This document shows, in pieces, positions 282 to 38,252 of a stretch of DNA of 64,000 bases. Below the pieces are notes generated by a model, which ran no database searches, was not told where the DNA came from, and saw nothing but the letters and a program-made list of their open reading frames with translations. Origin of the DNA: a virus; the IMG/VR virus record IMGVR_UViG_3300029984_000001, positions 1 to 64,000 of that record, one strand, 5' to 3'. The position numbers and the translations under genes are program-made. Numbering within the stretch: the stretch's first letter is position 1; the number at the start of each line of letters is the position of its first letter.

Positions 282-3200
282 TTAATTTCCTAATGCTAAG
301 TTTTCCATATCTTTCATTATTTCAGAAAGAGATATATCCTGATTGCTTTGAGTAGCCTTTTGAATTTTATTTAAAATGTTTTGTTTCTTCGATTGGATAT
401 CATTATTAGAACTAGTTTGTTTATTATCATTACCATTATCTGATAATAGTTTAACCATATCAGATATTGGTGTAGTATTTACACAAATATTAGTTAAAAT
501 AGTAATAACACTTTGTAAAAACTTCCCAATCTCAGGATTATCTTTAAGTGAAGATTGCGATTGGGTTTTAGTTATATTAGAATTATCTTCATTTTCTCCA
601 CCAATCCCATTATTATTTATTTCAAAAGTTCTTCTCATATAGGTATCTGGATTTACAGGAACTCCATTTTGTCTAGTTTCATAATGTAAATGTGGACCTG
701 TACTATTTCCTGTAGAACCAATATTTCCTATACCTTGACCTTCTTTTATACTATCTCCTGGTTTGAGATTGCTAGATTCATTCATGTGTCCAAAATAATG
801 TTCTCCACCAATAGCATCTTTCACAACTAATAAATTACCTAACCCGTTACTATCTTTAGTCGATTTATTTTGGACTACTGTTCCTGATATCGGAGATTTA
901 ATCGATGTGCCTTTAGCAGCTCCAATATCTATTCCAGTATGATTTTTAGGTATAGAACCAGTAGTATCTCTAAGACCAAATCCAGAAGTAACATTACCTT
1001 TTAGACTATTACTAAAGAAATTCTCTATAGCTCCTCCAACACCTTTGTAAACAGCTCCACCTACAGAAGATCCTGTTAATACTCTTCTAATATCATATAT
1101 ATCATTTCTACTTGATAAGTCTGATATTTTCACAACATCTCCTGTTTTGGGTGCATGAATATATTTATCATCTCCAATATAAATACCAACATGAGATGGT
1201 GGTGATGAACTCCCTTTGAATAATACTATATCTCCTGCTTGAATATCTTTTTGATCTACATGAAAACCAGCATTCTTTTGATCGTAAGTTGTTCTACCAA
1301 CATCTATTCCCATTTTATTAAATACATATTGAACAAATCCTGAACAATCAAAACCATTAGGAGTCGTTCCTCCCCATAAATATGGAGTGCCTAAGAAACT
1401 TTGAGCTATCTTTATAACTTCTCCTGGTTTACCTGAAACAGTTGTTCCTGAACTACTATTACCAATAGAAGAACTGTTTGCATCTTTATTAAATCCAAAT
1501 ATATTGTTCATAGAGTTACCGATAGCACCACTTAGATCACTAAAAAATCCTGCAATCCCATTAGAACTACTTGAACTACTATTAGTACTAGATGATATAC
1601 CTGTTGCAGCTGGATTATTTGGTGTAGTATCACCTGTAGCCTTTTTATATAATGAAGTTACTGTTGGAACCCAATCTTTATTTTGACCATTTGGATCATT
1701 GGCTGCTCCTATTGGTGCGTATTTTGAACCTATTTGATCAATAGTAGTTAAACCTTTCTTTATATAATTATCACCCAAATTCTTAATTGCAAAATCTAAT
1801 CCTTCATTTAATGAATCGAAATGTTTTATTGTTTTCCAATTATTATTCCAATCCATTATACCTGCTGGATTATTATCATTGTTTAAAGCAGGACTATTTC
1901 CACCAGTTTCATTTATCATGATAGATGCAGCTAATGATGGATCTACTCCATATTTTTTTCCTAAGTCTATATATGTTTGACCCATTCCTGATAACTTACC
2001 TCTTAATATAGCATTAACACCATCAGAAGTAGATTCTCCTCCAACACCATTAAATAACTTTTTAGATTCATTAGCACCACCTACATTTTGCCATGGTAAA
2101 TTTCCAGTATATTTAGCTGATACACTATTATTATTATTATTATTAGATGATTGTGAATCTGTTGCTATGACTTTATTTTTATTTATATTTTGATAATCAA
2201 TTACACCTGGAGATACAGTTTCAACCTTATTGAATGGATTTACATTTTGAGAAGTAGGTTGGTCTTGTTTATTAATATAATCTTGATATTTATCTATTTT
2301 TGTATCGGTCATAGAATTAACTATATATTTTCCTTTTCCTTTGTTTTTATTAATATAGTCTTCCATAGATATATCAACATTATTTTTCTTTTTATAATCT
2401 TCATATTCTTGTCTAGCTTTTTCACGTTGTTGTTGTAGATCAGTGTTATCTATTCCAAATATAGGTAATAATGTATCGAATATTAAATCTATCAAGAATG
2501 AATCAGGTAAAAATGATAGAATTATAGTCAATCCAGTTAAAGCTTTCATAAGACCACAACCAACTTTTTCTAAGAATGTTGGTTCTTCTGTGATACCCAA
2601 TATAGTTTGAGCATTAGAATAACCCATTACAAAGTCCACAATAGCAAGGGCTATATTTAATACTCCACCAGTAGATAAACCAGCTAATCTAGCAGATACC
2701 TTTGTTATATTCGCTGCTATTTTTTGAGTCAATCCGCTTAAGAATTTAGGAATAAATTTTTCTACAATCTTTACGGTTCTTTCTGTACCTACAAGAGCTT
2801 CGATTTCAGGATTACTAACTAAATTAAATAAGAATTTTTTTATACTTTCCATAGCTCCACTCAATGCTTTATCCATACCAATTCCTTTATATACAGAATT
2901 CATAATTCCACCAGATTTTGCTATGAAATTGGTACTTTTTTCTACTAATGAACCTGCCCCTCTTGTGATATTTCCTAATTTAGATGCAGTATTTGTCCCC
3001 ATTATAGTTTTTAAAGGATGAAGCATATTCTTTCCTAAATCAAAACCTTTACCAATAATTCTAGATGATTTATTAGCTAACCATCCAAATCCTTTTAATG
3101 CTTTGGTTCCTGTAGCTCCACCAGTTAATATATATCTACTAATAGCTTTAGTTCCATTACCAATCTCATTATATTTTTCCCCTGTTATAGAATCTGTATG

Positions 3201-6200
3201 AGATTCACCAAAAATAGAATTAGAAACAGTAGACCCAACATCACTACTATTAGATTTATATATTTTACTGTTATTCTTTAGACTATTATTATCAGAATCT
3301 TTTATAGGACTAAGTCCAGGTAAATGAGCTAATGTAGAATTATAAAATTGAGTTAAGAATCCTTTAAATCCATTTAGAATGAATCCACCTATACCAAGTA
3401 CACCTTCTTTAACAACTGCACCTATACCACTTACAACAGCAGGTATAATTGTTCCAGTAATGAATGGGACTACTTTATCTTTTAAATATGGTATTACTGT
3501 AGATTTAGCAAATCCAATTAATTGTGGAGCGAAGGCAAACCCTAACATTCCTTTCATTAATGTAGATGCTATACCAACGGTTTTTAAATCTGTAGAATTT
3601 GATATAAAATCAGCAGCTTTACCCCTAACTTTTTCAACATTTCTAGATAAAAATGTCATCATTTTATTTTTATAAACTTTATCTTGTTTATTATCTCTTT
3701 CAACTTCTTGAGTTTGTATATCACCTTTATTATAGATTTTATTATTATTACCATCTATATGATATTCCCTACCATCCTCATCTCTTTGATTCTTATTAAC
3801 ATTTCCTTTAAGATTATATTTAGAAGGCATTGATATCAGATTTGGTTTTTTATTAATTTCCTTTGTATCATATGATAATTCATTTGCATCTATCTCTTCT
3901 TTGGTTACATATTCCTTTTCACCTCTCGTATTCATATAATATAATCTATTATCAGAATCTTTCAATATTTTCTTTTTCTCTTTTGAATTATAAGAATCAA
4001 ATGCAGATAAAGCCCTATTTGAATTTGGAGATGGATGAGCTATATCATGTAATGTGGTAATAATTTCTTCCATTTTACTATTTATTTTTTCTCTAAATGT
4101 TTCACTTCTTTCTGATTCTTGTTCTTGTAATACTTCCATTCTTTCTTCTGGAGTTTTAGTTTCATTCTTTTTCTTATTTACATTAATTTCTTTATCTAAT
4201 AGATCTATATACTTCGATAATTTTTCAGGATTATTAAGTACACTATTAGGAATTTTAACACCAGATTTTTTTAATTTATCCATGAAATCCACATAAGATT
4301 CTGTTTGTTTATATCCTTTATCTACAGATGTATTATAATTATTAACTTTACTAGCAAGACTTCTTTTTAATGTTTCTTTTTCACCGTCAGACATATGTTT
4401 AGGATTAATATTATCAATCATTTTAAAGGCTATATCACTCTTGCCGTCCCTAATCAATTTCATAATCTTCTTAGATGTAAAGTATCCAACGTCTTTACTA
4501 ACATGCCCACCCATATCGTCTATCATAGATACTCTATCAGATTTATTCTTCTTATAATCTGTTCTCATATTAGAAAAACTATCTCTCATCATATTAAGTT
4601 TCTTAGAATCACCTTGAGTGAACCCGTCAATTAATTGATCAAATTCAGAGGTTTTATCTCCTAATCCCATTGCATGTTTTCTTCTAAAGTCTAATCTTTC
4701 AGAAGCAGTCATATAATCAGCAGTACCATTTTTTATTTGACGTTTTCTTAAACGATTACCAGCCATATTTATTAATCCTATAGGTGCTCCGATTAATCCC
4801 TTTAATGCCTTACTACTTATCCATGTTAATGCTTTACCTACAGGACCAGCGATTTGTGCTACTAACTTAGATAACGGTACACCTAAACTACTTTCAATTA
4901 TTTTATCAAATATTTTAAGAACACCTTTACCTAGACCTTTAGCCATTAATTCCATTTGTTTAGAGAATGGTTTTACAGATGTAGCTAATTTTTCGAACAC
5001 ATTCTTCTTAAACCACGTTACAGCTCCATCCCTTTTCTCTTTTAAAAAAGCAGACATAGGATCTACAATCTTTTCTCTAAAATGAGGTAATAGTCCACCG
5101 ATATATTTACCATGACCATCTGGTTTACCGAATATAAAGTTTTGGAATTTTTCTGATGTTGTAGCCATACCAATAGCAGAACCAAGAAAAGCATTTCCCA
5201 TAATACCAAATGGTAATGGACTTGCTATAGCAGCAACCAAAGCTCCTGCTCCAATTCTAGGCAACATTGATTTCATCTTTTCTTTCTTTTTACCTAACCA
5301 CGATTCATTATTTTTACCGAATAACCATTCTTTCATTCTACCAGTATCTTTAGCATAAGCAAAAGATGCACCTAACATAACTCCACCTATTGGACCAAAA
5401 GGCATAAATGGTAACAATCCTGCAACTCCACCCACAATTCCATAATTCTTTAAATCTGGCAATAACTTCTTCATTTTATTTACAAATTTACTACTTGTGG
5501 CTTTTGCGACGAATCCACCTTTACGTTGTTTATCCCCATTTTCATCAGTAAATTCCTCACCAAACAACCAGTTTTGCATTGTCTCAGAATGTTTAGTTAT
5601 AGATATTCCTGCTCCAATTGCAGCTCCTAATAATGGTCCACCTAACATTCCTGTGACTAAAGATACACCTGAACCTAGTAATGCTGAACCTATAGCTTCA
5701 GGAGCATAAGTTGTAATTCCTTTAGATGCTTCTGATATAAAATTAGATACTTTCTTCTTTTCTGCTAATATTTTCTCTGGAGTTAATTCTTCATTACCAT
5801 TAGTTAAACCAGAAAAGACTTTAGTAGCAGCATTCTTTAATTCACCTTTCATTTGGTCTAGATAATCTGTAAATATATTACCATCTTTAGAAGGGTTTTT
5901 TAATTCACCTAATACAGTTTTTAATATACCAGCATATTGATTATTTTTTTCTTGAGAAGAGAAAGATTCTTTTATCTTATCATGATTAATCATATTCAAC
6001 ATAGTAGACATTGTATCATTATAATCATCTGAATCTTGTTCTTTCCCTCGAAGCATATTCTTCATTTTTAAATGAGTTCTTTTTGCTATATCTTCATTAG
6101 ATACCTTATCACTATTTACATCATTAACAGAAGTCTTTATAAACTTTTTAAAGTTTCTCCATTGTTCTGCTTCTTTTACTGGAAGTACAGCCTCACCTCT

Positions 6201-9014
6201 ACTTATAACTGCTACAGTATCTTGATCTACATTATCTGTACCTGTTGCATAATGAGGAACTTCATTGTTCATATAATTATTTATAACTGTACCTATATCA
6301 CTAGAAAACGTTTCAGCAGCTCTATCTTCACCTCTATTTAATCCCGAAAATTTACCTTTTATTTTAGATGTAATTGGAGAAAATACTGTACCAAAAGCAT
6401 TTTTAGTAGAATCCCATGCTCCAGAGAATACAGATTTGATTCCTCTTCCTATTTCAGAAAATAAACCATCAACTCCATTTTCTTTACTACCAAATAAATA
6501 TTCTTTTACTTTTGCACCTAAATCTTTCAATCCAGTTCTTTCTAGAATATCATTTAGTTTATCTTTTATTCCAAGATCTTTTATTTTATCTGTTAGAGGA
6601 TCTATAACTCTTTCATCTAACCATGTAGAGAATTTATTGAAATTTTCTTTAAGTTTATCAATCATTACTGTTACAAAACTTCTATCATCAGCTTTTTCTC
6701 CAACACCGTAAATTAAACTATATAATTTATTATCTATTTTATCAAATACTCTAGACATTATTTGATTAGGTTTATCAACAATGGATTTAATTTTATCTGT
6801 CATAGTTTTAATTTTATCATAAGATGTACCCGTCTCATCTAGATCATTCATTATCTCATGTATAAAAGACGTCCTATTTTGTAATAATGAGTTTCTTCTA
6901 AACTCTTCTGTTTCCTTTACATTATAAATTTTACCAGCTACACCTCTTTGTAATTTATCAGAATCGTAATCAGTGGTATTAATAAGACCATGATTATCTT
7001 TAGCTTTTCTTTTAGTAACTTCATATGATGCTTCAGATCTTCTTCTAGTTTCTATTTCTCTTAAATCTTCAGTACTAGTTGAATTATTATCTGGAATATT
7101 ATATGTGTCTATATTTGGTGTTGTTAATGAAGTGCCTCTTCTTCTGCCAGTACTACTTGTATTATTACTTCTAATAAATCTTAACTCTCTTAATATTTGA
7201 TCCAAATACCAGAATCCACTATAACCTTTATCACTATTTACATTTAAAGGACTATTTTTATAGGTTAAAGTAGAATTTTTCTTCACATTTCCTTTTTCAT
7301 CTACTCTATAATCATCTTTACCAAATAGATTATTGTCAATAGTATTATAAACACTATTACCTTTATTCTCTATATCTGTAAGATGATTTTTCTGATCTGC
7401 TCTACTTCTCATTATATTTTGAGATAACATTTTCTTTGTATCTTGATTAGAACCTTCAAATAATCCTTTTATAATTTCATAATTATCCGAATCTTGTATA
7501 TTATAATAACTATGATCTAGATTTTTATTATTATATTCAAATAATATACCTTTATCATAAATAGTATTCAACATACTCTTCATATCTTTAAATAAAGATT
7601 CTTGTTCAGAGTAAGTTAGATTTATATACTTAGACATTTCTTTCATTTCATTTTCTATATCTCTTGTAGCTGAATCAGCATAACCTTGTTTTAGATTATC
7701 AAAATTCTTTTTGATTTGATGTTGTTCTACAAAAGTTCCTTTTTCATGATCAAATATCTGAGCAGGCATACCAGATAATAACGAAATTATTTTTGCTAAT
7801 TGTTGTGGTATTACATCATTTAAAGTTTTATCAGAAATTCCATTCCATTTCATTTCACCTCTATGGTATTTAGCAGGAGATAATGATTTTTTTAAACCAG
7901 TATCAGGAGAGAATATTTTTGTTAATTCTCTAATTTTATCAGTGAATGGATTATCTCCTCTATCTTCATCTGTAAACCCATTTAGTTTAGCTGTTAATGA
8001 TCCGAATAGAGATGACGCAGTTTTATCTATCTTCCCCATACTCTTCTTCAAACCGTTACCTATTATGAATTTACTAACAAAACCCTCCATAAGCATACCT
8101 AAAGGATTAGCTGCCAACATCTTTAATACATTTGTATCATCACCCATAGAGTTTAAAGTAGATGTAATTAGACCTAAATCTGGATTGTTCATAACGTTTT
8201 CTTTTACATGTGAAAAATATTCTTTTATATCTGGAATACCACCAATAGCAATATCAGAATAAGATTTCTTTTTCTTAGATTCTTTCTTTTCTGGACCAAT
8301 AATAGTATTCATTTTAGTAGATATTTCTCTTAATAAAGCCGTTTGATCTTGAAGTAACTTGGTAGACTCTTCATAATATTTCTTTTGATTTTCTGCCATA
8401 CTTTTTGTAATATCAACAACAGGCATCATAGAACCTATATTATCATTTATAACTCCAAGATGTTTAGAAAACATTTGATTCGATTTAGTATTTTGCACAT
8501 ATAATAAATTAGTATTTTCTTTTGATACTTGAGTAGAGTATTCTGTTGATCTAACTATTGCTGAACTTATTGCATTAGCATTTGCTTCTGATGATTGATG
8601 AATGTTACTGGATATCATATTATCATTAGAAGGACTAGGAGAATCATTAAAATCTTCATCATCAAAATTAAAATTATCTAACCCTTCAAATTCATCATCA
8701 AAATTCATTCCTGATTGTTCAGCAGATATTTGATCTATTCTTTTAGTATTATAAAAAGTACCATCTCTTAAATCTTCCATAAGAGATTTTTTTAATTGTT
8801 CACCAGCAGTATATACTTGTGATTTTTTAGTATAATCCATCATCCTTTTATATGTTTGTTTATAATTAATAATATCAGAATAGGCTGATCTGAATAAATC
8901 GGCATTAGTCTCTTTAAAATCTTTGACTGAAGACATATTTTCTGATACATGATTAACAGTAGCATATACTATAGATTTTGCAACATTAGTACTATACCCT
9001 AATAAATTAGCCAT
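282..9014 (-). CDS. Tail tape-measure protein with lysozyme-like, NlpC/P60 and M23 hydrolase domains
   Basis: 2910-residue protein starting at ATG 9014 behind AGGAGG. The N-terminal half is charged and helical. Around residues 925-960 there is the motif region ATGTDNVDQDTVAVISRGEA, seen in tape-measure proteins. Residues about 1110-1310 hold three glycine-rich hydrophobic segments, each followed by W/F-x-FG-K/E, probably membrane-active. The C-terminus carries three peptidoglycan hydrolase modules in order: a lysozyme/glucosaminidase-like domain (about 2325-2450, with NETGG and PAGIMDW), an NlpC/P60 papain-like domain (about 2520-2640, FDCSGF with Cys2557, then SHVGIYIG and YIHAP), and an M23 zinc endopeptidase (about 2660-2790, HTGIDIG and HLHYET). 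It should fix tail length, be delivered with the DNA and open the cell wall of a Gram-positive host. Length implies a long tail. Identification as tape measure is strong from size and domains. Confidence 0.9.
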   Translation of the reverse strand: MANLLGYSTNVAKSIVYATVNHVSENMSSVKDFKETNADLFRSAYSDIINYKQTYKRMMDYTKKSQVYTAGEQLKKSLMEDLRDGTFYNTKRIDQISAEQSGMNFDDEFEGLDNFNFDDEDFNDSPSPSNDNMISSNIHQSSEANANAISSAIVRSTEYSTQVSKENTNLLYVQNTKSNQMFSKHLGVINDNIGSMMPVVDITKSMAENQKKYYEESTKLLQDQTALLREISTKMNTIIGPEKKESKKKKSYSDIAIGGIPDIKEYFSHVKENVMNNPDLGLITSTLNSMGDDTNVLKMLAANPLGMLMEGFVSKFIIGNGLKKSMGKIDKTASSLFGSLTAKLNGFTDEDRGDNPFTDKIRELTKIFSPDTGLKKSLSPAKYHRGEMKWNGISDKTLNDVIPQQLAKIISLLSGMPAQIFDHEKGTFVEQHQIKKNFDNLKQGYADSATRDIENEMKEMSKYINLTYSEQESLFKDMKSMLNTIYDKGILFEYNNKNLDHSYYNIQDSDNYEIIKGLFEGSNQDTKKMLSQNIMRSRADQKNHLTDIENKGNSVYNTIDNNLFGKDDYRVDEKGNVKKNSTLTYKNSPLNVNSDKGYSGFWYLDQILRELRFIRSNNTSSTGRRRGTSLTTPNIDTYNIPDNNSTSTEDLREIETRRRSEASYEVTKRKAKDNHGLINTTDYDSDKLQRGVAGKIYNVKETEEFRRNSLLQNRTSFIHEIMNDLDETGTSYDKIKTMTDKIKSIVDKPNQIMSRVFDKIDNKLYSLIYGVGEKADDRSFVTVMIDKLKENFNKFSTWLDERVIDPLTDKIKDLGIKDKLNDILERTGLKDLGAKVKEYLFGSKENGVDGLFSEIGRGIKSVFSGAWDSTKNAFGTVFSPITSKIKGKFSGLNRGEDRAAETFSSDIGTVINNYMNNEVPHYATGTDNVDQDTVAVISRGEAVLPVKEAEQWRNFKKFIKTSVNDVNSDKVSNEDIAKRTHLKMKNMLRGKEQDSDDYNDTMSTMLNMINHDKIKESFSSQEKNNQYAGILKTVLGELKNPSKDGNIFTDYLDQMKGELKNAATKVFSGLTNGNEELTPEKILAEKKKVSNFISEASKGITTYAPEAIGSALLGSGVSLVTGMLGGPLLGAAIGAGISITKHSETMQNWLFGEEFTDENGDKQRKGGFVAKATSSKFVNKMKKLLPDLKNYGIVGGVAGLLPFMPFGPIGGVMLGASFAYAKDTGRMKEWLFGKNNESWLGKKKEKMKSMLPRIGAGALVAAIASPLPFGIMGNAFLGSAIGMATTSEKFQNFIFGKPDGHGKYIGGLLPHFREKIVDPMSAFLKEKRDGAVTWFKKNVFEKLATSVKPFSKQMELMAKGLGKGVLKIFDKIIESSLGVPLSKLVAQIAGPVGKALTWISSKALKGLIGAPIGLINMAGNRLRKRQIKNGTADYMTASERLDFRRKHAMGLGDKTSEFDQLIDGFTQGDSKKLNMMRDSFSNMRTDYKKNKSDRVSMIDDMGGHVSKDVGYFTSKKIMKLIRDGKSDIAFKMIDNINPKHMSDGEKETLKRSLASKVNNYNTSVDKGYKQTESYVDFMDKLKKSGVKIPNSVLNNPEKLSKYIDLLDKEINVNKKKNETKTPEERMEVLQEQESERSETFREKINSKMEEIITTLHDIAHPSPNSNRALSAFDSYNSKEKKKILKDSDNRLYYMNTRGEKEYVTKEEIDANELSYDTKEINKKPNLISMPSKYNLKGNVNKNQRDEDGREYHIDGNNNKIYNKGDIQTQEVERDNKQDKVYKNKMMTFLSRNVEKVRGKAADFISNSTDLKTVGIASTLMKGMLGFAFAPQLIGFAKSTVIPYLKDKVVPFITGTIIPAVVSGIGAVVKEGVLGIGGFILNGFKGFLTQFYNSTLAHLPGLSPIKDSDNNSLKNNSKIYKSNSSDVGSTVSNSIFGESHTDSITGEKYNEIGNGTKAISRYILTGGATGTKALKGFGWLANKSSRIIGKGFDLGKNMLHPLKTIMGTNTASKLGNITRGAGSLVEKSTNFIAKSGGIMNSVYKGIGMDKALSGAMESIKKFLFNLVSNPEIEALVGTERTVKIVEKFIPKFLSGLTQKIAANITKVSARLAGLSTGGVLNIALAIVDFVMGYSNAQTILGITEEPTFLEKVGCGLMKALTGLTIILSFLPDSFLIDLIFDTLLPIFGIDNTDLQQQREKARQEYEDYKKKNNVDISMEDYINKNKGKGKYIVNSMTDTKIDKYQDYINKQDQPTSQNVNPFNKVETVSPGVIDYQNINKNKVIATDSQSSNNNNNNSVSAKYTGNLPWQNVGGANESKKLFNGVGGESTSDGVNAILRGKLSGMGQTYIDLGKKYGVDPSLAASIMINETGGNSPALNNDNNPAGIMDWNNNWKTIKHFDSLNEGLDFAIKNLGDNYIKKGLTTIDQIGSKYAPIGAANDPNGQNKDWVPTVTSLYKKATGDTTPNNPAATGISSSTNSSSSSSNGIAGFFSDLSGAIGNSMNNIFGFNKDANSSSIGNSSSGTTVSGKPGEVIKIAQSFLGTPYLWGGTTPNGFDCSGFVQYVFNKMGIDVGRTTYDQKNAGFHVDQKDIQAGDIVLFKGSSSPPSHVGIYIGDDKYIHAPKTGDVVKISDLSSRNDIYDIRRVLTGSSVGGAVYKGVGGAIENFFSNSLKGNVTSGFGLRDTTGSIPKNHTGIDIGAAKGTSIKSPISGTVVQNKSTKDSNGLGNLLVVKDAIGGEHYFGHMNESSNLKPGDSIKEGQGIGNIGSTGNSTGPHLHYETRQNGVPVNPDTYMRRTFEINNNGIGGENEDNSNITKTQSQSSLKDNPEIGKFLQSVITILTNICVNTTPISDMVKLLSDNGNDNKQTSSNNDIQSKKQNILNKIQKATQSNQDISLSEIMKDMENLALGN

Positions 9015-20912: not shown

Positions 20913-21368
20913 TTGATAAGAATTGTAGAGGATTCTATATTCAATGCAAAGGAAAATATAATTTGCCATCAAGTAAATACGCAAGCAAAAATGGGTAGTG
21001 GGTTGGCATTAGAAATGAAAGATAGGTATCCAGTGGTGTATAATGATTATATGAGACTATGTGAAAAGCATTATAAAGAGAATAAACCATTATTAGGTAT
21101 ATGTCAATTAGTATCTGTTAATAATACTAAATTTGTAGCTAATTTATTTGGTTAAGATTTTTATGGTAATGATAAAAAATATACTAATTATAATGCATTA
21201 ATAAGAGGTTTTACAAGATTATTTCTAAATGCTAATTGTGATATAGCAATACCTTATCTAATTGGATGTGATAATGGTGGAGGAGATTGGAAGAAGCTAT
21301 ATAATATAATTGAAATATTAGCAGAGGATTTTCCATATAATGTAGTAATATATAAATACCATCCATAA
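20913..21368 (+). pseudogene. Macro-domain (ADP-ribose binding) gene interrupted by an in-frame TAA
   Basis: TTG start at 20913 behind AAGAGGTG. The first 80 residues are a typical macro domain: IICHQVNTQAKMGSGLALEM, with the ADP-ribose-binding VNxxxxMGSG loop. A TAA at 21153-21155 interrupts it after VANLFG. The same frame continues without further stops for 71 codons (DFYGNDKKYTNYNAL, then the loop IPYLIGCDNGGGDW) to TAA at 21366-21368. Family members have glutamine (CAA) at the stop position, so one C-to-T change explains the break. The intact protein would be 151 residues and would act on ADP-ribose derivatives. Confidence 0.8.
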
Positions 21369-22052: not shown

Positions 22053-22103
22053 TAAACAGTATATTGTATATAAATAAATTATAATGAAGAGGAGACGATT
22101 AAA

Positions 22104-22706
22104 ATGACAGTAATTTTAGGAGTAGTAGACAAGAGAAGCAAAACGGTACATATCATGGGTGATTCAATGGTTAGTAGAGGCGAAAGTATTGCATATGAAA
22201 TTAATAAAATTTGGACTTCTAATGATTTTGTAATTGGAAGTGCTGGTTCATTAACTATGATACAATCATTAAAAAGACAATTACATTTTCCATCACAAAA
22301 AGATATTGAAGATAATAATTTGACTATTGATATTGATTTTATGGTAAATCAATTATGTCCAGCAATCAAACAATTAGTCAAAAATAATAATTTATCTGAA
22401 AATGATTTAGCTGATATTCTAGTAGGATATAAAGAAGACTTATATTACATAACATCATATTTTAACGTAATAAAAATAAGAGAGTATCAATCTATAGGTT
22501 CTGGTTGTACAAGAGCAGAAGCAGCATTTCAAAATTCAAATATACAAGATATAGAAAAAGCATTATTCCATTCAATATTATATGCTACAAAAAATATAAG
22601 ATCTTGTAGTATGCCTGCTTATTGCATAAACACTAAAGATAAACAATTTAAGAAATACGATTCAAATGGACATTGGACATTAAGTAAGGTTGATGAACAA
22701 TGGTAG
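22104..22706 (+). CDS. Proteasome/HslV-like Ntn-hydrolase
   Basis: 200 residues, ATG 22104 behind GAGGAG. The start MTVILGVVDKRSKTVHIMGD parallels HslV, whose Met is removed to expose catalytic Thr1: here Thr2 would be the nucleophile, with Asp20 (MGDSM) and Lys35 (NKIW) at the positions of the Asp17/Lys33 pair. The AGSLTMIQ and YQSIGSGCTRAEAAF segments match the proteasome-fold GSG loop. A typical HslV is about 175 residues. No HslU-like unfoldase adjoins it, although AAA+ ATPases occur at 34594-38252. It probably assembles as an oligomeric peptidase or a non-proteolytic relative. Its stop overlaps the HAD gene, so both should be made together. Confidence 0.75.
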   Translation: MTVILGVVDKRSKTVHIMGDSMVSRGESIAYEINKIWTSNDFVIGSAGSLTMIQSLKRQLHFPSQKDIEDNNLTIDIDFMVNQLCPAIKQLVKNNNLSENDLADILVGYKEDLYYITSYFNVIKIREYQSIGSGCTRAEAAFQNSNIQDIEKALFHSILYATKNIRSCSMPAYCINTKDKQFKKYDSNGHWTLSKVDEQW

Positions 22707-23284
22707 GCAATTATATATTCTTAGACATAGATGGAGTACTTAGTACCTTTAGATTTATAGATTATCAAGTAAAAAATCATGAATGTGCTCATGAAGATGC
22801 AGACTTAAATTTTGATCCTATATGTATGAAAAACTTAAAACTATTAATGTCATATATGAATAATCCTAAGATATGTATATCTTCATCATGGAGAAATAGT
22901 AATACTGGTTTAAAAGATATAGAATTAAATTTAGAATTATATAATATCATATTTGATAAACTATATGAAACTCCAGACTTAAGTAAATCATCAAGAGCTG
23001 ATGAGATACATAAATTTATAACAGATAATTATATTGATATTAGATTATCTAATATAATTATACTAGATGACGAAGATATTATTGGACATGACTTAGAAAA
23101 GTTTCATATTAAATGTGATGATTATAATGGTTTTAATAAGGAATGTTTAAAAAAAGCTGCTGAATTAATAGATAAAAATAGAAGATTAATTAAATCAAAT
23201 ATAGAAAAATTAGCACCACCAAAACCTAAAGCACCAGAACCAAAAGCTATTAAAGAAAGTATATTTAAATTAAAATGGAGGTAG
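22700..23284 (+). CDS. HAD-superfamily phosphatase (Swiss-army-knife RNA-repair type)
   Basis: 194 residues, overlapping the previous stop by 7 nt and lacking its own strong Shine-Dalgarno, so translation is coupled. The motifs run in order: FLDIDGVL (motif I with Asp nucleophile near residue 9), ICISSSWR (motif II) and IIILDDEDI (motif IV acidic pair). This layout matches the HAD domain found in phage RNA-repair proteins and polynucleotide phosphatases. The C-terminal 35 residues are a proline/lysine-rich tail (APPKPKAPEPKA). Substrate not determined. Confidence 0.75.
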   Translation: MVGNYIFLDIDGVLSTFRFIDYQVKNHECAHEDADLNFDPICMKNLKLLMSYMNNPKICISSSWRNSNTGLKDIELNLELYNIIFDKLYETPDLSKSSRADEIHKFITDNYIDIRLSNIIILDDEDIIGHDLEKFHIKCDDYNGFNKECLKKAAELIDKNRRLIKSNIEKLAPPKPKAPEPKAIKESIFKLKWR

Positions 23285-29267: not shown

Positions 29268-29379
29268 TATATTTAGTATATTATCTATACTTATCAAATA
29301 GATAAGCTGAATAATATATTTATATACATAAGGACAAACATTAGATTACAATATATAGAAGAAAAGGGAGATGTGTATT

Positions 29380-30012
29380 ATGAATATTATAAAAAGAGAT
29401 GGAAGAAAAGAAGTAGCAGTATCGCATAAAATAATAAATGCAATGATAATGTCTACTAATGGTCAAAAAGGATATGATCATTATAAATTAACATGTTTGG
29501 GAATGAGTTGTTTAGATGAAATAATAGAAAAGTATGGAAATGATTCTACAATAGAAGTAGACACAATTCATGATGAAGTAATAGATTTTTTAAAGAAAAA
29601 TCATTTATATGAATTAGCAATAAACTATTCTGAATATAGAGATGATAGATCTAAATGTAGGATGAAGAATAGTGAATTAATGAAAATGGTATCAGGTTTA
29701 TCAAAAGAAACTAATCGTGGAAATGCAAATGTGGGTAATAATTTTAGTTCGAAATTATTAATGATTGCATCTGGTGCAAATAAATGTAGTGTACTAGGAG
29801 AAATGCCAAAAGAAATAGCAAGACTTCATGAAGTAGGAGATCTATATTATCACGATTTAGATAGTTTTAACCTTACCACAAATTGTTTACATATACCAGC
29901 AGCTAAGACACTTAGTAAAGGCTTTAACACTGGTTATGGATACATTAAACCTCCCCAAAGGATAGAATCAGCATCAGATTTAATCTGTATACTAATACAA
30001 TCCGTACAGAAT
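29380..30012 (+). CDS. nrdD: Anaerobic ribonucleoside-triphosphate reductase NrdD, exon 1
   Basis: ATG 29380 is preferred: AAGGGAG ends 9 nt upstream, whereas the in-frame ATG 29371 touches it. The first residues (IIKRDGRKEVAVSHKIINAM) are an ATP-cone regulatory domain. The exon ends at VQN, codon AAT at 30010-30012. Joining it to exon 2 at 30509 gives VQNDQYGGVSIPD, which matches the conserved QNEQxGGxSIP region of class III reductases. Unspliced, the frame would stop at 30016-30018. Spliced, exons 1-3 encode about 703 residues, a normal NrdD length. The enzyme makes dNTPs under anaerobic conditions; the activase NrdG was not found in this window. Confidence 0.9.
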
Positions 30013-30508
30013 AATTGAATTGTTCCCTCATATGGTAACATATGTTGAATAACCCTGTGAACCTAGATATCTAGGGTGTGTATATAAGTCTAGAGATATA
30101 TGCTAACGGTAGAAGTGAAATAAGATTGATTGCACGACAATTGTAATCCTTTGAGAAATAAGCGAATAAGCTTCGTAAGAGAGCCTGAAGATCCTTTGAT
30201 AACTTCTAAGGATAGCTGGTAATAGCCGTGCTAAATTACATAATTAATATTATGTATAAATGTGAAACGAGTATCTGAAATCTATACACTAAGAGTTGTC
30301 TTAGTTGAAAATAAGGTATTAGAAATAATACACGAAGAAAGTAAGAGTAGGGATAAGTTTAGAGACTTATATGGTATATAATAATTGGTTTTATTATATG
30401 TCACCGAAGTGCAGGGTATCCTATAACAAATACTTATAGGATAATGATATAGTCTAGTCCGATAATTTTAAATTATGTTAAAGTATCACGAAAGTGACGG
30501 TATAATAG
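30013..30508 (+). ncRNA. Group I self-splicing intron 1 in nrdD, 496 nt, without endonuclease
   Basis: Boundaries follow group I rules: the exon ends with T and the intron ends with G, and they restore the NrdD frame exactly. Core elements: P-like GCTAACGGT (30102-30110) pairs with Q-like AGCCGTGCT (around 30223-30232) through ACGG/CCGT for P4; R-like TTTAGAGACTTATATGG (about 30358-30374) pairs through AGACT with the S-like GATATAGTCT (30446-30455) for P7. No open reading frame of useful length lies inside. Long stretches match intron 2. Confidence 0.85.
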
Positions 30509-31018
30509 GATCAATACGGTGGAGTAAGTATTCCTGATCTAGATAATACGTTAGGATTCTTTGTAAATCTAACAAAAGCAGAAATTCTAGAAGAAATGAA
30601 TGAAGATGAAACAGAAGTAACAAAAGACAAATTAGATAGAAAAGTAAGAAAGAAAACTAGACAAGCTATGCAAGGTATTTGTTATAATCTTAATACAATG
30701 CATTCAAGAGCTGGTTCACAAGTTCCTTTCTCTTCAGTTAATTTAGGATTACCTTTAGATGATGACGCTGCATTAGTGTGTGAGTTATTTTTAGAAGAAT
30801 TTGATAAAGGAATGGGAAAAGGAAGTCCTCTAATTTTTCCTAATGTTGTCTTTACTGTTAAAGATGGTGTAAATAGGAAAGAAGGAGACCCTTATTATTA
30901 TCTATATAAATTAGCATGTAAAGTTGCATCTAAGAAGATGAATCCAACTTTCTTAAATATAGATGCTGATTTTAATTTAGAATATTATAATAAAGGTATT
31001 GTTGCACAAACTATGGGT
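30509..31018 (+). CDS. nrdD: NrdD, exon 2
   Basis: Frame begins DQYGGVSIPD and ends VAQTMG at GGT 31016-31018. It carries the central barrel segment, including QGICYNLNTMHSRAGSQVPF. Joined to exon 3 it makes MGCRTQVLSNINGS; MGCR is the conserved motif that, as I recall, carries the thiyl-radical cysteine of class III enzymes, so intron 2 separates the glycine from that cysteine. The intron's first codon is TAG, so unspliced message would stop here. Confidence 0.9.
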
Positions 31019-31464
31019 TAGGTTACGAGCAGCCCATATAAAACCTCATGAACCTAGAAATCTAGGGTGTATATACGAGTCTAGAAGTATATGCTAACGG
31101 TAGAAGTTGAATAAGATTGGTTATAGAAAAGTGATTATAACCCTACTAGAAATAGTAGTCCATAAACGAAGTAGCTTCGTAAGAGAGCCTAAGGTCCTTT
31201 TTTAATAAGGATAGCTAGGGAATACCGTGTCTGTTAATATAATTTTTATTATAAAAATGAGATGTAACGACTAGTTGAAATCTATATATCAGAGAGAAAT
31301 ACTTTGATTGAAAATAAGGTATAATTAACATTATACACGAAGAAAGTAGACGTAGCAAGAAACTCGGTGAAAGTCCGTAATGCGAAGTATGAGGCTTATT
31401 ATATATGGTAACAGTATATAATAATGAAGAGATAGTCTGTTTAATATTAAAATATTATTAAGCG
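31019..31464 (+). ncRNA. Group I self-splicing intron 2 in nrdD, 446 nt, without endonuclease
   Basis: The exon ends in T (GGT) and the intron ends in G (GCG) before TGT CGT ACT (CRT). Core elements parallel intron 1: GCTAACGGT near 31093-31101 with TACCGTGT near 31223-31230 for P4, and GAGGCTTA near 31391 with GATAGTCT 31431-31438 for P7 (one G-U pair). Segments such as ATCTAGGGTGT and CTTCGTAAGAGAGCCT are shared with intron 1, so the two arose from a common ancestor. Confidence 0.8.
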
Positions 31465-32433
31465 TGTCGTACTCAAGTATTGTCGAATATAAACGGGTCT
31501 GCTGGACCTACAGGTAGGGGGAATATTGGAAATACAACGATGAATCTACCAAGATTAGGAATCTTATCTAATAATGATATAGATAAATTCTTTGAATTAT
31601 TAACAAATTTATTAGAAGAATGTAAGAATTCCTTACTATATAGAAAAGATGTATTATCAAATCTAAAAGTAAAAGATCTACCATTTATAGCAGGGCAAGA
31701 ATTATTCTTAGGATCTGAAGGATTAAAAGAAACAGATTCTATATTACCTATATTAGAACAAGGAACTTATGGTATGGGATTTGTAGGGTTAGCAGAAACT
31801 CTAGTAGCTTTATTAGGAGTGCATCATGGACAAACATTAGAAGCTAGAGAATTAGGTGAAAAAATAAATGGTTTTATAAGAGAGAAAGCAGATTATTATA
31901 CTACTAAATACTCCTTAAATTTCAGTGCATATGCTTCTCCAGCTGAGGAAGTATCTGGGAAACTTTGTAAAAGTGATATAAAGAAATTTGGTATTATAGA
32001 GGGTGTAAATGATAAAGAATTCTATACAAATGGATTTCATATACCTGTAGATTTCCCTATATCAATTATGAATAAAATACAAATAGAAGCACCTTATCAT
32101 AAAATGTGTAATGGTGGTCATATATCATATATAGAGGTAGATGATTATCCAACTCCAAAATTAGTTGAAAAGGTTGTAACAAAATCATTCACTGAAACTA
32201 ATATAGCTTATATAGGAATCAACTTTCATATAAGATATTGTAAAGAATGTGGAACTCTTTTACATGGAGAATCAAAATGTGATTGTGGGTCTACTAGTAT
32301 TCAAGGTATTTCTAGACTTACAGGATATTTAGGTCTTGATGAAAGATTTGGAGAGACAAAATCAAAAGAAAGATCTTTAAGAATTAATCATAATTCAGAT
32401 CATGCAAAAGTATATAATAATGTAAAGAAATAA
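31465..32433 (+). CDS. nrdD: NrdD, exon 3 with glycyl-radical and zinc site
   Basis: Starts in frame at TGT 31465 (CRTQVLSNINGSAGPTGRGN), runs through TINLPRLGI-type sequence (TTMNLPRLGI) and ends at TAA 32431-32433. Near the C-terminus are the four zinc cysteines (CKECGTLLHGESKCDC) followed by SRLTGYLGLDERFG, the RxxGYL-type glycyl-radical loop. All features expected of an active class III reductase are present across the three exons. Confidence 0.92.
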   Translation, partial: CRTQVLSNINGSAGPTGRGNIGNTTMNLPRLGILSNNDIDKFFELLTNLLEECKNSLLYRKDVLSNLKVKDLPFIAGQELFLGSEGLKETDSILPILEQGTYGMGFVGLAETLVALLGVHHGQTLEARELGEKINGFIREKADYYTTKYSLNFSAYASPAEEVSGKLCKSDIKKFGIIEGVNDKEFYTNGFHIPVDFPISIMNKIQIEAPYHKMCNGGHISYIEVDDYPTPKLVEKVVTKSFTETNIAYIGINFHIRYCKECGTLLHGESKCDCGSTSIQGISRLTGYLGLDERFGETKSKERSLRINHNSDHAKVYNNVKK

Positions 32434-34593: not shown

Positions 34594-34740
34594 ATGAAAA
34601 AATTATTAAAAAATATTAACAAACAAGAAATTAAAAAGAAAGCTATTATGGGTGCAAAAGCAATGATTGTTAGAACAGTAGTAAGAGCTGTTACTAATAA
34701 ACAAAATAGAAAGAGATTATATGAACTATGTATTAGATAA
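34594..34740 (+). CDS. Small basic protein, possible detached N-terminus of the first AAA+ ATPase
   Basis: 48 residues, ATG 34594 behind AAGAGGTG, stop TAA 34738-34740. The sequence is very basic and helical (NINKQEIKKKAIMGAKAMIV). It overlaps the next gene by 20 nt in the +1 frame. In the third AAA+ gene (37092) a similar basic helical segment is joined to the ATPase in one frame, so this may be the N-terminal piece of a split gene, or a separate partner protein. Confidence 0.6.
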   Translation: MKKLLKNINKQEIKKKAIMGAKAMIVRTVVRAVTNKQNRKRLYELCIR

Positions 34741-35692
34741 TACAGCCGAAGGTCTATATATAAATCAATATAATCATAGAGAAGATTATAATAATATCAT
34801 TGTATGGTTATATAGTTTAAATAATAAAAATCTAAATAATAATATAAATACAACTGTAACTTCATATGGAAATAATAGTACTATTAAAGATGGTACTTAT
34901 AAAATAATACATAATAAATGTTTGATAATAGTAGAGGCAGGTCATCTTGGTCTTGATCAAGAGACTTCTATATATAAAGAAATTAAAATAAATATATTAG
35001 GTTCTAATAATAAAACCATTATAAAAGATGCTTATAAAACTATTAAAATAGATAGTGAATCTTGTATCCAATTAGAAAGAAGAAATGGACAACCTGTATC
35101 CATTGCTAAAAGAAAATTAGATACTATATTTAGTGATCAATTTGATGAAATAAATAATCTAATAATAAAATGGAAGGATCAACAAGATGTATTTAGAGAA
35201 CATGGTATGGCATTTAAAACAGGTATATTGTTACATGGGGTTCCAGGAACAGGAAAGACTTCTATAGTTAGAGCTATAGCTACAGAATTTAATATGAATA
35301 TAATGTATGTTAATGTAGCTACAATAAAAGCTCAAGATATAGACTATATCAATATTAGAAATAACAGTATTTTACTATTAGAAGAAATAGATTTAATGAA
35401 AGATGACGAAGATTATAAAAAGAAAGTAAGTTCTTTATTATCTTTATTAGATGGAATTACAAGTCCTAATAATTGTATCATAATAGCAACAAGTAATTAC
35501 ATAGATGCAATTGATGAAAGACTAGTGAGAAAAGGTAGATTTGATAATATAATAGAGGTTACTAATATTTGTAGACATACCGCTATTAGAATGTGTGAAA
35601 GTTTCAATATAGATCCTGTACTTGTATTAGAAGAGGGTAAAAAATCTTTTAATCCTAGTGAATTACAAGATAAAATATTAAAAATAATATAA
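34721..35692 (+). CDS. BCS1-like AAA+ ATPase, first of three
   Basis: 323 residues. ATG 34721 has only AGAAAGAG upstream, so coupling to 34594 is likely. Residues 1-120 are a divergent BCS1-type N-terminal domain. The AAA+ core follows: GILLHGVPGTGKTS (Walker A, about 173-180), SILLLEEIDLM (Walker B), IIATSNYID (sensor 1) and DERLVRKGRFDNIIEVT (arginine-finger region). No transmembrane segment. BCS1-like ATPases remodel or translocate folded proteins; the phage role is unknown. Confidence 0.8.
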   Translation: MNYVLDNTAEGLYINQYNHREDYNNIIVWLYSLNNKNLNNNINTTVTSYGNNSTIKDGTYKIIHNKCLIIVEAGHLGLDQETSIYKEIKINILGSNNKTIIKDAYKTIKIDSESCIQLERRNGQPVSIAKRKLDTIFSDQFDEINNLIIKWKDQQDVFREHGMAFKTGILLHGVPGTGKTSIVRAIATEFNMNIMYVNVATIKAQDIDYINIRNNSILLLEEIDLMKDDEDYKKKVSSLLSLLDGITSPNNCIIIATSNYIDAIDERLVRKGRFDNIIEVTNICRHTAIRMCESFNIDPVLVLEEGKKSFNPSELQDKILKII

Positions 35693-35710: not shown

Positions 35711-36058
35711 ATGAATAAAACTGTAATAAAAGAATTTTTAATTAAAGAAGCGAAGAAAGAAATCAAAAAACAATTAGTGAATACTATATTTAGTAATAAT
35801 AATAAAAAGAAAGTAAAAGATTTAATATTCTCGAAAATATCATCATCTTATAAAGTATCTACAGTTAAAAATACTATATCATTAGAATATAAATTCTTAA
35901 TACACTGGATTAGAGATATAAAAAATAAAGAACTTTATAAAAATTTAAAACAATTCGAAAATAATGATGTCATGTTATTAGAAAATGGGGAATATAAAAT
36001 ATTATATGAAAATAATTTAATATTAATAAAATCATATACAGATGATATGTACATATAA
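35711..36058 (+). CDS. N-terminal domain of the second AAA+ ATPase, encoded as a separate frame
   Basis: 115 residues, ATG 35711 behind TGGGG. Matches the N-terminal part of the 37092 product: basic helices at the start and WIRDI near residue 75 against WLIKT there. It ends with YTDDMYI in a 17-nt overlap with the next gene, which lies in the +1 frame and continues at NIIIDVIGK. Deleting one T after ATGTACATA would fuse them into a protein like that of 37092, so a frameshift split is likely. Confidence 0.65.
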   Translation: MNKTVIKEFLIKEAKKEIKKQLVNTIFSNNNKKKVKDLIFSKISSSYKVSTVKNTISLEYKFLIHWIRDIKNKELYKNLKQFENNDVMLLENGEYKILYENNLILIKSYTDDMYI

Positions 36059-37064
36059 TATAATAATAGATGTTATTGGTAAAACAGGTAAAGAAATTGT
36101 TGAAGACATCATAGAATACATAGTTTCTAGTATTAAGAATGTTAGAAACACTAAAAAAGATCCAGACAGTATATACATAGATTATAAAAGATTTCCTACA
36201 GACGATTATTATATTTCAATATTAGGAAGAAAATTAGAAACTATATATTCTGAACAAATTGATGATATAATAAATATTATATGCAATTGGTCTAATGATA
36301 GTGATATATATCATAAACATGGACTAGCATTTAAAACTGGTATTATATTACATGGTGTTCCAGGAACAGGAAAAACCTCGATAGTTAAAGCCTTATCAAC
36401 ATATTTCGCCATGAATATGATTACATTAAATATAGCTTCTATATCTGCTAAAGATTTAATAAAATTTTCTCAACAAATAAGAACAGATGAAAATAAGATA
36501 GTATTATTAGAAGAAATAGATTTAAGAGATTCTGATGAAAAAGATAAAAAAATGCAAGAACTACTAACTCTATTAGATGGGGTTGATGGAGTAAATAATA
36601 TAATATTTATAGCTACTACTAATGATATTGATGGGGTTGATGTACGATTAAAAAGACCAGGAAGGTTTGATAATATAATCGAGATTACAAATATAAATAT
36701 AGATTTAGCTACTAAAATGTGTGAAAGTTTTAAAGTTGATTCTAATATAGTATTAGAAAATTATAATATTAAATTTCCTAATTCAGAAAAATACAATCCA
36801 GCTACATTGCAAGCAGAAATATTAAATGAATATCATAAACAAAAATCAAATATAAATAATATTGTAAATATAGACAATATTAACCTTAAAAATAAATCTA
36901 ATAATAAAACTTCATGTAAAGCTGAATATACACCATCATCTTATATAGGGGAGGTAAATTCGTTTAATATAAATAAGGGAGTAGATAATAAGTGGAATTC
37001 AAACGGACACCGTATTTATGGTTCTGAACCAATATATGATGAAAAGATAATAGCAACTAATTAA
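36042..37064 (+). CDS. BCS1-like AAA+ ATPase, second of three, with asparagine-rich tail
   Basis: 340 residues. ATG 36042 lacks a Shine-Dalgarno and lies within the end of 35711. AAA+ motifs: GIILHGVPGTGKTS (about 101-113), KIVLLEEIDL (Walker B), FIATTNDID (sensor 1) and DVRLKRPGRFDN (arginine finger). After the core there is a 70-residue asparagine/lysine-rich tail absent from the other two copies. It is very close to the 34721 copy in the core, so the trio arose by duplication. Confidence 0.75.
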   Translation: MICTYNIIIDVIGKTGKEIVEDIIEYIVSSIKNVRNTKKDPDSIYIDYKRFPTDDYYISILGRKLETIYSEQIDDIINIICNWSNDSDIYHKHGLAFKTGIILHGVPGTGKTSIVKALSTYFAMNMITLNIASISAKDLIKFSQQIRTDENKIVLLEEIDLRDSDEKDKKMQELLTLLDGVDGVNNIIFIATTNDIDGVDVRLKRPGRFDNIIEITNINIDLATKMCESFKVDSNIVLENYNIKFPNSEKYNPATLQAEILNEYHKQKSNINNIVNIDNINLKNKSNNKTSCKAEYTPSSYIGEVNSFNINKGVDNKWNSNGHRIYGSEPIYDEKIIATN

Positions 37065-37091
37065 TTTTAATTTATAGGAGTGTGTATTAAA

Positions 37092-38252
37092 ATGAATAAT
37101 AAAATATTAAATGTTTTGGTAAAAGAATCTAAACAAATGGCTATCCGTATAATAAGAGATAAAACATCAAAATTAATATCAGATAATAAATACAGAAATT
37201 GTGTGAAAAATGATATACTTTCTAAATTTAGTAGAAATTTAAAATTGATGGGTCATGAAGACAAATTTAAAATTAAATATGTTAGGATTATAAGATGGTT
37301 AATAAAAACTTTTAATATAGAGGATGTGTATATGCTGGATAGATTCAAATCCATTCCATACAAATGTTACACTTTCAAATATAATGGCTCTGTGTTGTAT
37401 ATAGATCATAGCAAAGAAGGGGATAATATATTATTAGATATAAAAATAATAACTATCAAAAAAGAAATAGGTGATAATATATATAAAGAATTAGTAGATA
37501 TATCAGCAGGGTCTCTAGAATGTATTTCGGATTCATCAAATAATTTTATAGCTATGTATAAATGTGATGGTGAAGATATATGTGATAGAATGTTGGTACC
37601 AAAAAGATCATTGGATACTATATTCTCTAATGAATTACCATTAATAATTTCCGATTTAGAAAACTTTATGAGTAAAAAATCTATATTCAAAAAACATCAA
37701 CTTCCATTTAAAACTGGTATATTTTTATATGGGGAACCAGGAACAGGTAAGTCTTCTATCGTAAAAGCCATTGCATCTAATTTTAATATGGATATATTTT
37801 ATATCAATTTAACTGAATTGAATTATGGTCAATTAAAGAATACTGTTAATGATATTAACGGTAGAACTCGCAGAATAAGAACTTCAATAATATTATTAGA
37901 AGAAATTGATCTATCAGAAAATGAAGATAACTCATTCAATGAAAAGAATAAAAAATTAAGTTTATTATTGAATTGGTTAGACGGACAAGAATCACCATCA
38001 GATATAATATTTATAGCTACTACCAATTATATAGATAAAGTTGATGAAAGAATAAAAAGATCTGGTAGATTTGATTATAAATATGAAATAAGTCAATTAG
38101 ACGAAGATCAAGCTTCTAAGATGTGTATGAGTTTTGACATAAATCCTAAAGAGATATTAGAATTAGATGAGTTTAAAGATTGTGTTACATATAGTCCCGC
38201 AAAAGTTCAAGAATATATTTTAAAGAAAATAGTGGTGGGTATAAATGAGTAG
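37092..38252 (+). CDS. BCS1-like AAA+ ATPase, third of three, full-length
   Basis: 386 residues, ATG 37092 with GGAG upstream; the in-frame GTG 37080 is too close. This copy keeps the N-terminal domain and ATPase in one chain: basic helices 1-60, a WLIKT segment, a beta-rich region, then FLYGEPGTGKSS (about 213-220), SIILLEEIDL, FIATTNYID and DERIKRSGRFD. It differs from the other two by a Glu after the first Gly in Walker A (GEPGTGKS). It overlaps the next gene by 8 nt. Confidence 0.8.
   Translation: MNNKILNVLVKESKQMAIRIIRDKTSKLISDNKYRNCVKNDILSKFSRNLKLMGHEDKFKIKYVRIIRWLIKTFNIEDVYMLDRFKSIPYKCYTFKYNGSVLYIDHSKEGDNILLDIKIITIKKEIGDNIYKELVDISAGSLECISDSSNNFIAMYKCDGEDICDRMLVPKRSLDTIFSNELPLIISDLENFMSKKSIFKKHQLPFKTGIFLYGEPGTGKSSIVKAIASNFNMDIFYINLTELNYGQLKNTVNDINGRTRRIRTSIILLEEIDLSENEDNSFNEKNKKLSLLLNWLDGQESPSDIIFIATTNYIDKVDERIKRSGRFDYKYEISQLDEDQASKMCMSFDINPKEILELDEFKDCVTYSPAKVQEYILKKIVVGINE

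Follow-up and report, generated by a model that had tools for sequence, protein, structure and literature searches.

The window analysed here, which makes up the first 64,000 bases of a 263,571-base virus record, carries at 22104-22706 on the plus strand a gene for a proteasome/HslV-type Ntn hydrolase of 200 amino acids. Judged by its alignments, the protein is a divergent, so far undescribed member of the known phage proteasome homologues; it probably falls on the HslV/BPH side of that family (the "group I" of PMC8665760) and works as a ring peptidase by the mechanism described below. A Shine-Dalgarno-like AGGAGA at 22090-22095 (plus strand), 8 nt 5' of the first ATG, reads as a good ribosome-binding site for the gene. 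The initial annotation of this DNA had proposed an HslV-like Ntn hydrolase at this place, and the identification holds at several levels: PHROG 1040 ("peptidase HslV family") matches with an E-value of 3.4e-13 over residues 1-153 (profile positions 14-136 of 277, the C-terminal part of the profile lying outside the match), the profile of our alignment A5 matches PDB sequences with an E-value of 2.6e-10, and the confidently predicted structure resembles BPH, HslV and proteasome beta subunits. As a single sequence, the protein misses the gathering cut-off of the Pfam Proteasome model (PF00227; 16.5 versus 22.4 bits). No NCBIfam family matches it up to an E-value of 10, and it was accordingly not classed as HslV proper by a curated model.

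Thr2, the putative nucleophile, Asp20 and Lys35 are kept together in 126 of the 127 unique sequences (the window protein counted among them), a figure that for Thr2 is partly a product of selection, because an MTCI pattern was among those of the IMG/VR scan that yielded 321 stretches; the patterns of the 38-locus IMG/VR scan did not contain Thr2, and Asp20 was in no pattern of the three scans. The sole exception to the triad is L091, a clipped ORF call with a late start. Gly45, assigned to the oxyanion hole, is likewise found in 126 of the 127. When profiles were aligned to HslV (1m4y) and to BPH (5ovu and 5ovs), Thr, Asp and Lys came to lie on known catalytic positions, which in proteasome numbering are Thr1/Asp17/Lys33 (PMC8665760). 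The residue layout claimed in the initial annotation, including the G132-S133-G134 loop, is borne out position by position. Met1 lies immediately before Thr2, so that the peptidase has no propeptide. Removal of the N-terminal methionine is usual for Met-Thr, and here it would expose the nucleophile directly.

The AlphaFold2 model of the peptidase, built with 87 sequences, reached a pLDDT of 91.4 and a pTM of 0.88, and it has the alpha-beta-beta-alpha Ntn fold of a proteasome/HslV subunit. By Foldseek E-value, the closest solved fold is that of Thiobacillus BPH (E-value 9.8e-11, probability 1.00, 18% identity); trypanosomal HslV and archaeal proteasome beta subunits are also near the top. VIA-align gave a Z-score of 19.9 against a proteasome beta subunit (rmsd 3.3 over 172 residues, with many rows tied), and most of its alignments begin with model residue 2 on chain residue 1. 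Helices are predicted between strands at residues 50-59 and 76-94, the H1 and H2 places of the family; since both are present, the protein is not of the short PPH type, which is without H2. Two outcomes that the initial annotation itself had named as counting against its reading, a predicted structure without the Ntn fold and homologues with the three catalytic residues replaced, did not occur.

The analysis shows the gene itself, a fold (by prediction), conservation of the triad and the lack of any propeptide; the mode of action we infer from the family. The host would remove Met1 and leave Thr2 as the N-terminal nucleophile, which Asp20 and Lys35 would activate. Subunits would then assemble into a single or double ring that encloses the active sites, and there the enzyme would cut proteins, presumably small or unfolded ones. 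It may need no dedicated phage unfoldase, or it may borrow one from the host. The putative peptidase activity and the rings are not certain, because a monomeric ligase, connectase, has the same fold (PMC8665760).

The window encodes RNA polymerase beta-type subunits with kin in Staphylococcus, Bacillus and Yersinia jumbo phages, along with a structural protein that has relatives in Fusobacterium phages and Bacillus phage PBS1. With the new member, the phage proteasome homologues now include one from a jumbo phage that encodes a multi-subunit RNA polymerase of its own. A 143,890-base contig in IMG/VR matches the window at 100% identity across the 16.6 kb compared, and we take it as a second assembly of the same phage; because of this identity, the loci on it (L001, L097, L156 and L160) are not independent evidence. 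Elsewhere in the window, a 2910-amino-acid protein is encoded at 282-9014 on the minus strand, with tail and metallo-endopeptidase matches within its last 700 residues.

Relatives of the peptidase are common in phages. A tblastn search found matches in 9 of 50,697 phage records, including Geobacillus virus E3, Psychrobacter phage D'Alembert and Vibrio phages, and one alignment of the peptidase matched 321 confirmed viral stretches in IMG/VR, 80 of which were kept; two further alignment-based scans gave 25 and 38 loci. Identity between the window protein and its 86 relatives in alignment A5 ranges from 19 to 30%. Cellular relatives of the A3 type (25 loci, from Rhizobium, Paenibacillus, Plantactinospora, Lutibacter and others) span alpha-proteobacteria, actinobacteria, Bacillota and Bacteroidota.

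Some relatives depart from the single-gene arrangement. Two adjacent peptidase genes, all with an intact triad, are present in each of L104 (5001-6158), L106 (4427-5558) and L113 (3333-4948), two of which sit on contigs of more than 340 kb; a two-subunit ring is conceivable for these pairs. In L193 and L194, which are Clostridia genome contigs, the family profile is matched by as many as four ORFs at a locus, and those shown start with MSVVVA, placing Ser at the nucleophile position. In Geobacillus virus E3 (L002, 1-3736), the topoisomerase II gene is annotated in the record as having an in-frame stop, and peptide evidence for a fused product is given there; this interrupted gene lies a few kb from the peptidase gene of that phage.

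Interrupted genes are found in the window as well. The anaerobic ribonucleotide reductase gene nrdD (29371-32433, plus strand) is in three pieces, 29371-30018, 30596-31021 and 31480-32433, which jointly span almost all of the NRDD profile. The two stretches between them share 74% identity over 308 nt and match the Rfam group I intron weakly (E-values of 0.0032 and 0.16, both short of the gathering score); on these grounds, the gene is likely to contain two related introns. At 20913-21367 on the plus strand, a gene with a match to PHROG 335 ("phosphatase"), which we take to encode a macro domain, has one in-frame TAA at 21153-21155, past which the frame stays open for about 70 codons with plausible sequence. 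The same stop is present in the second assembly.

What the family does in phages is a separate matter, and here gene neighbourhoods bring in an alternative, namely that the peptidase serves virion assembly, as a late enzyme for trimming or clearing proteins of the head, portal or scaffold, and is encoded near packaging genes in many phages. In a PHROG scan of 80 neighbour proteins from 26 diverse relatives (three without usable neighbours), the commonest families included portal, terminase, head morphogenesis, head maturation protease and major head proteins. The order terminase-portal-peptidase, or direct contact, is seen in L021, L065, L068, L072, L151 and L155, and in the first three the portal ORF overlaps the peptidase start by 4 nt. 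An HK97-type portal (PF04860) was found in 32 of the 49 relatives searched, and the counts that follow are for these 32. The peptidase lies less than 3 kb from the portal in 15 of them versus 5.0 expected from random placement (none of 5000 placements reached 15), and at most 5 kb away in 19 versus 7.5 expected; as such placement takes no account of the modules in which phage genomes are built, the excess may in truth be smaller. For distances up to 1 kb, the excess is a weak one (5 of 32 versus 2.35 expected, p 0.085), and in 6 of 32 the two genes are more than 30 kb apart. In a listing of 143 loci, 40 (L008, L009 and L118-L155) represent one lineage with a portal in all; 45 of the other 103 have an anchor head gene within 3 kb, a count based on few anchor genes, on some assignments from wrong-frame ORFs (L108) and on many records that are fragments. 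Where stated, L159 (a duplicate of L158) and L103, L105, L114 and L116 (contigs already present) were left out.

However, an ordinary head maturation protease is present as well in several of these portal-linked phages, and neither of the portal and terminase models used, PF04860 and PF03237, matches the window phage (G000), whose peptidase gene lies near genes for thymidylate synthase and a methyltransferase. In annotated large phages, too, the peptidase gene is found away from head genes, with thymidylate synthase, PhoH, DNA ligase or unknown genes beside it. The portal lead therefore concerns the family and not the window locus. Among the papers brought up by searches on phage HslV or proteasome, and by searches that added portal, prohead or head maturation, no title or abstract opening pointed to a head role. 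All told, we regard a function in virion assembly as unlikely. Its most specific form is doubtful to the same degree: the phage proteasome homologues would act in packaging or head assembly, the peptidase ring processing or clearing some substrate related to portal, scaffold or terminase; their genes would stay near those for terminase and portal across unrelated phages, and jumbo phages such as the window phage would carry the same enzyme away from recognised head genes. The portal excess in other phages offers a first clue to function, one open to testing in culturable phages.

The gene that follows the peptidase gene, at 22700-23284 on the plus strand, overlaps it by 7 nt and encodes a 194-residue HAD_SAK_2 family phosphohydrolase (PF18143, 62.5 bits versus a cut-off of 27.5), whose motifs DIDGVL, SSSW and DD are kept in two relatives. 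The initial annotation had correctly noted a HAD phosphatase gene in this overlap and had read the overlap as co-production. Co-expression of the two genes is indeed probable; a partnership between the products is another matter, and the HAD probably acts independently. A two-gene unit, in which phosphatase and peptidase act on one target or pathway, could draw on the overlap and on L157, an 85-kb contig without a match to the window's 1742-amino-acid RNA polymerase protein and otherwise dissimilar, where a peptidase gene is preceded, 464 nt upstream, by the gene for a HAD of 54% identity. But gene overlaps are ordinary here (6 of 45 adjacent pairs in the window region), and we rejected this one as a sign of joint function. 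Moreover, among 23 HAD loci scanned (L159 not counted), the examined flanks contained a peptidase only in the window's own contig and in L157, every other sampled peptidase locus lacks the HAD, and the two records of the next-closest HAD (G002 and G003) have no peptidase anywhere. HAD_SAK_2 is present in 2 of 11 peptidase-selected records, elsewhere in the record and not adjoining the peptidase. With L157 as the one further case, the HAD was set aside as a functional partner, and we consider a two-gene unit very improbable. PADLOC had no match for either protein, and a role as a defence-system component was rejected on that basis.

Least probable of all, if by a small step, is a protease driven by AAA+ proteins of the phage itself, at least one of which would unfold substrates into the peptidase ring. 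The three AAA+ genes that the initial annotation had placed about 12 kb away are real: they lie at 34721-35692, 36042-37064 and 37080-38252 on the plus strand, 12.0 kb downstream of the peptidase gene, and encode genuine AAA domains (PF00004). Their BCS1-like label was not borne out, as the best PHROG is 7485 (unknown function), the best PADLOC match is IetA, with TRIP13 and others weaker, and none of these labels is BCS1. The suggested link to the peptidase fared no better. Among 15 records, strong phrog_7485 matches (E-value < 1e-20) occur in the second assembly of the window phage and otherwise only in G009 and G011, tens of kb from the peptidase; four more of the 15 have weaker matches. 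All three AAA+ proteins lack a hydrophobic-Tyr-X motif at the C terminus. The remark that no HslU accompanies the peptidase extends to the whole 263,571-base record, in which PF07724 (HslU/ClpX type) has no match, although this record may be a fragment and HslU of the host could serve. PMC8665760 likewise reports no co-occurring AAA+ interactors for phage proteasome homologues. With the two kinds of gene apart in other records and no PF07724 match, an AAA+ partner was dismissed as unsupported. The further idea in the initial annotation, that such a peptidase could act on host defence or RNA polymerase factors, gained no support from the analysis.

Phage proteasome homologues are in print (PMC8665760 and PMC7823757), and so is the finding of an HslV-like gene in a phage that lacks HslU. 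The preferred reading, a phage proteasome homologue on the HslV/BPH side, can be compared with several such systems. The group I phage homologues AAH and PPH, for which PMC8665760 gives neither a function nor a telling genomic context, are likewise phage-encoded, with the proteasome triad, no propeptide and no AAA+ partner found. Whereas PPH has about 140 residues and no helix H2, the window peptidase has 200 residues and both helices in its model, and it was not assigned to PPH. The bacterial phyla of its cellular relatives fit the distribution described for AAH, a likeness of occurrence and not of compared alignments. BPH (5ovs, 5ovt and 5ovu; PMC5777263), which offers the closest solved fold, forms a double ring, binds epoxomicin and has no known unfoldase partner; it is bacterial, a tetradecamer with a long acidic pore loop, whereas the window protein is known here from its gene and model. 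A BPH has also been described in phage RXM (PMC8953757). Finally, the Salmonella jumbo phage pSal-SNUABM-04, as described in PMC7823757, has HslV genes and no HslU, much as the window phage has an HslV-like gene and no HslU-type match in its record; it carries two HslV copies, whereas the window phage has one peptidase match, and the two phages are likened here by description and not by sequence.
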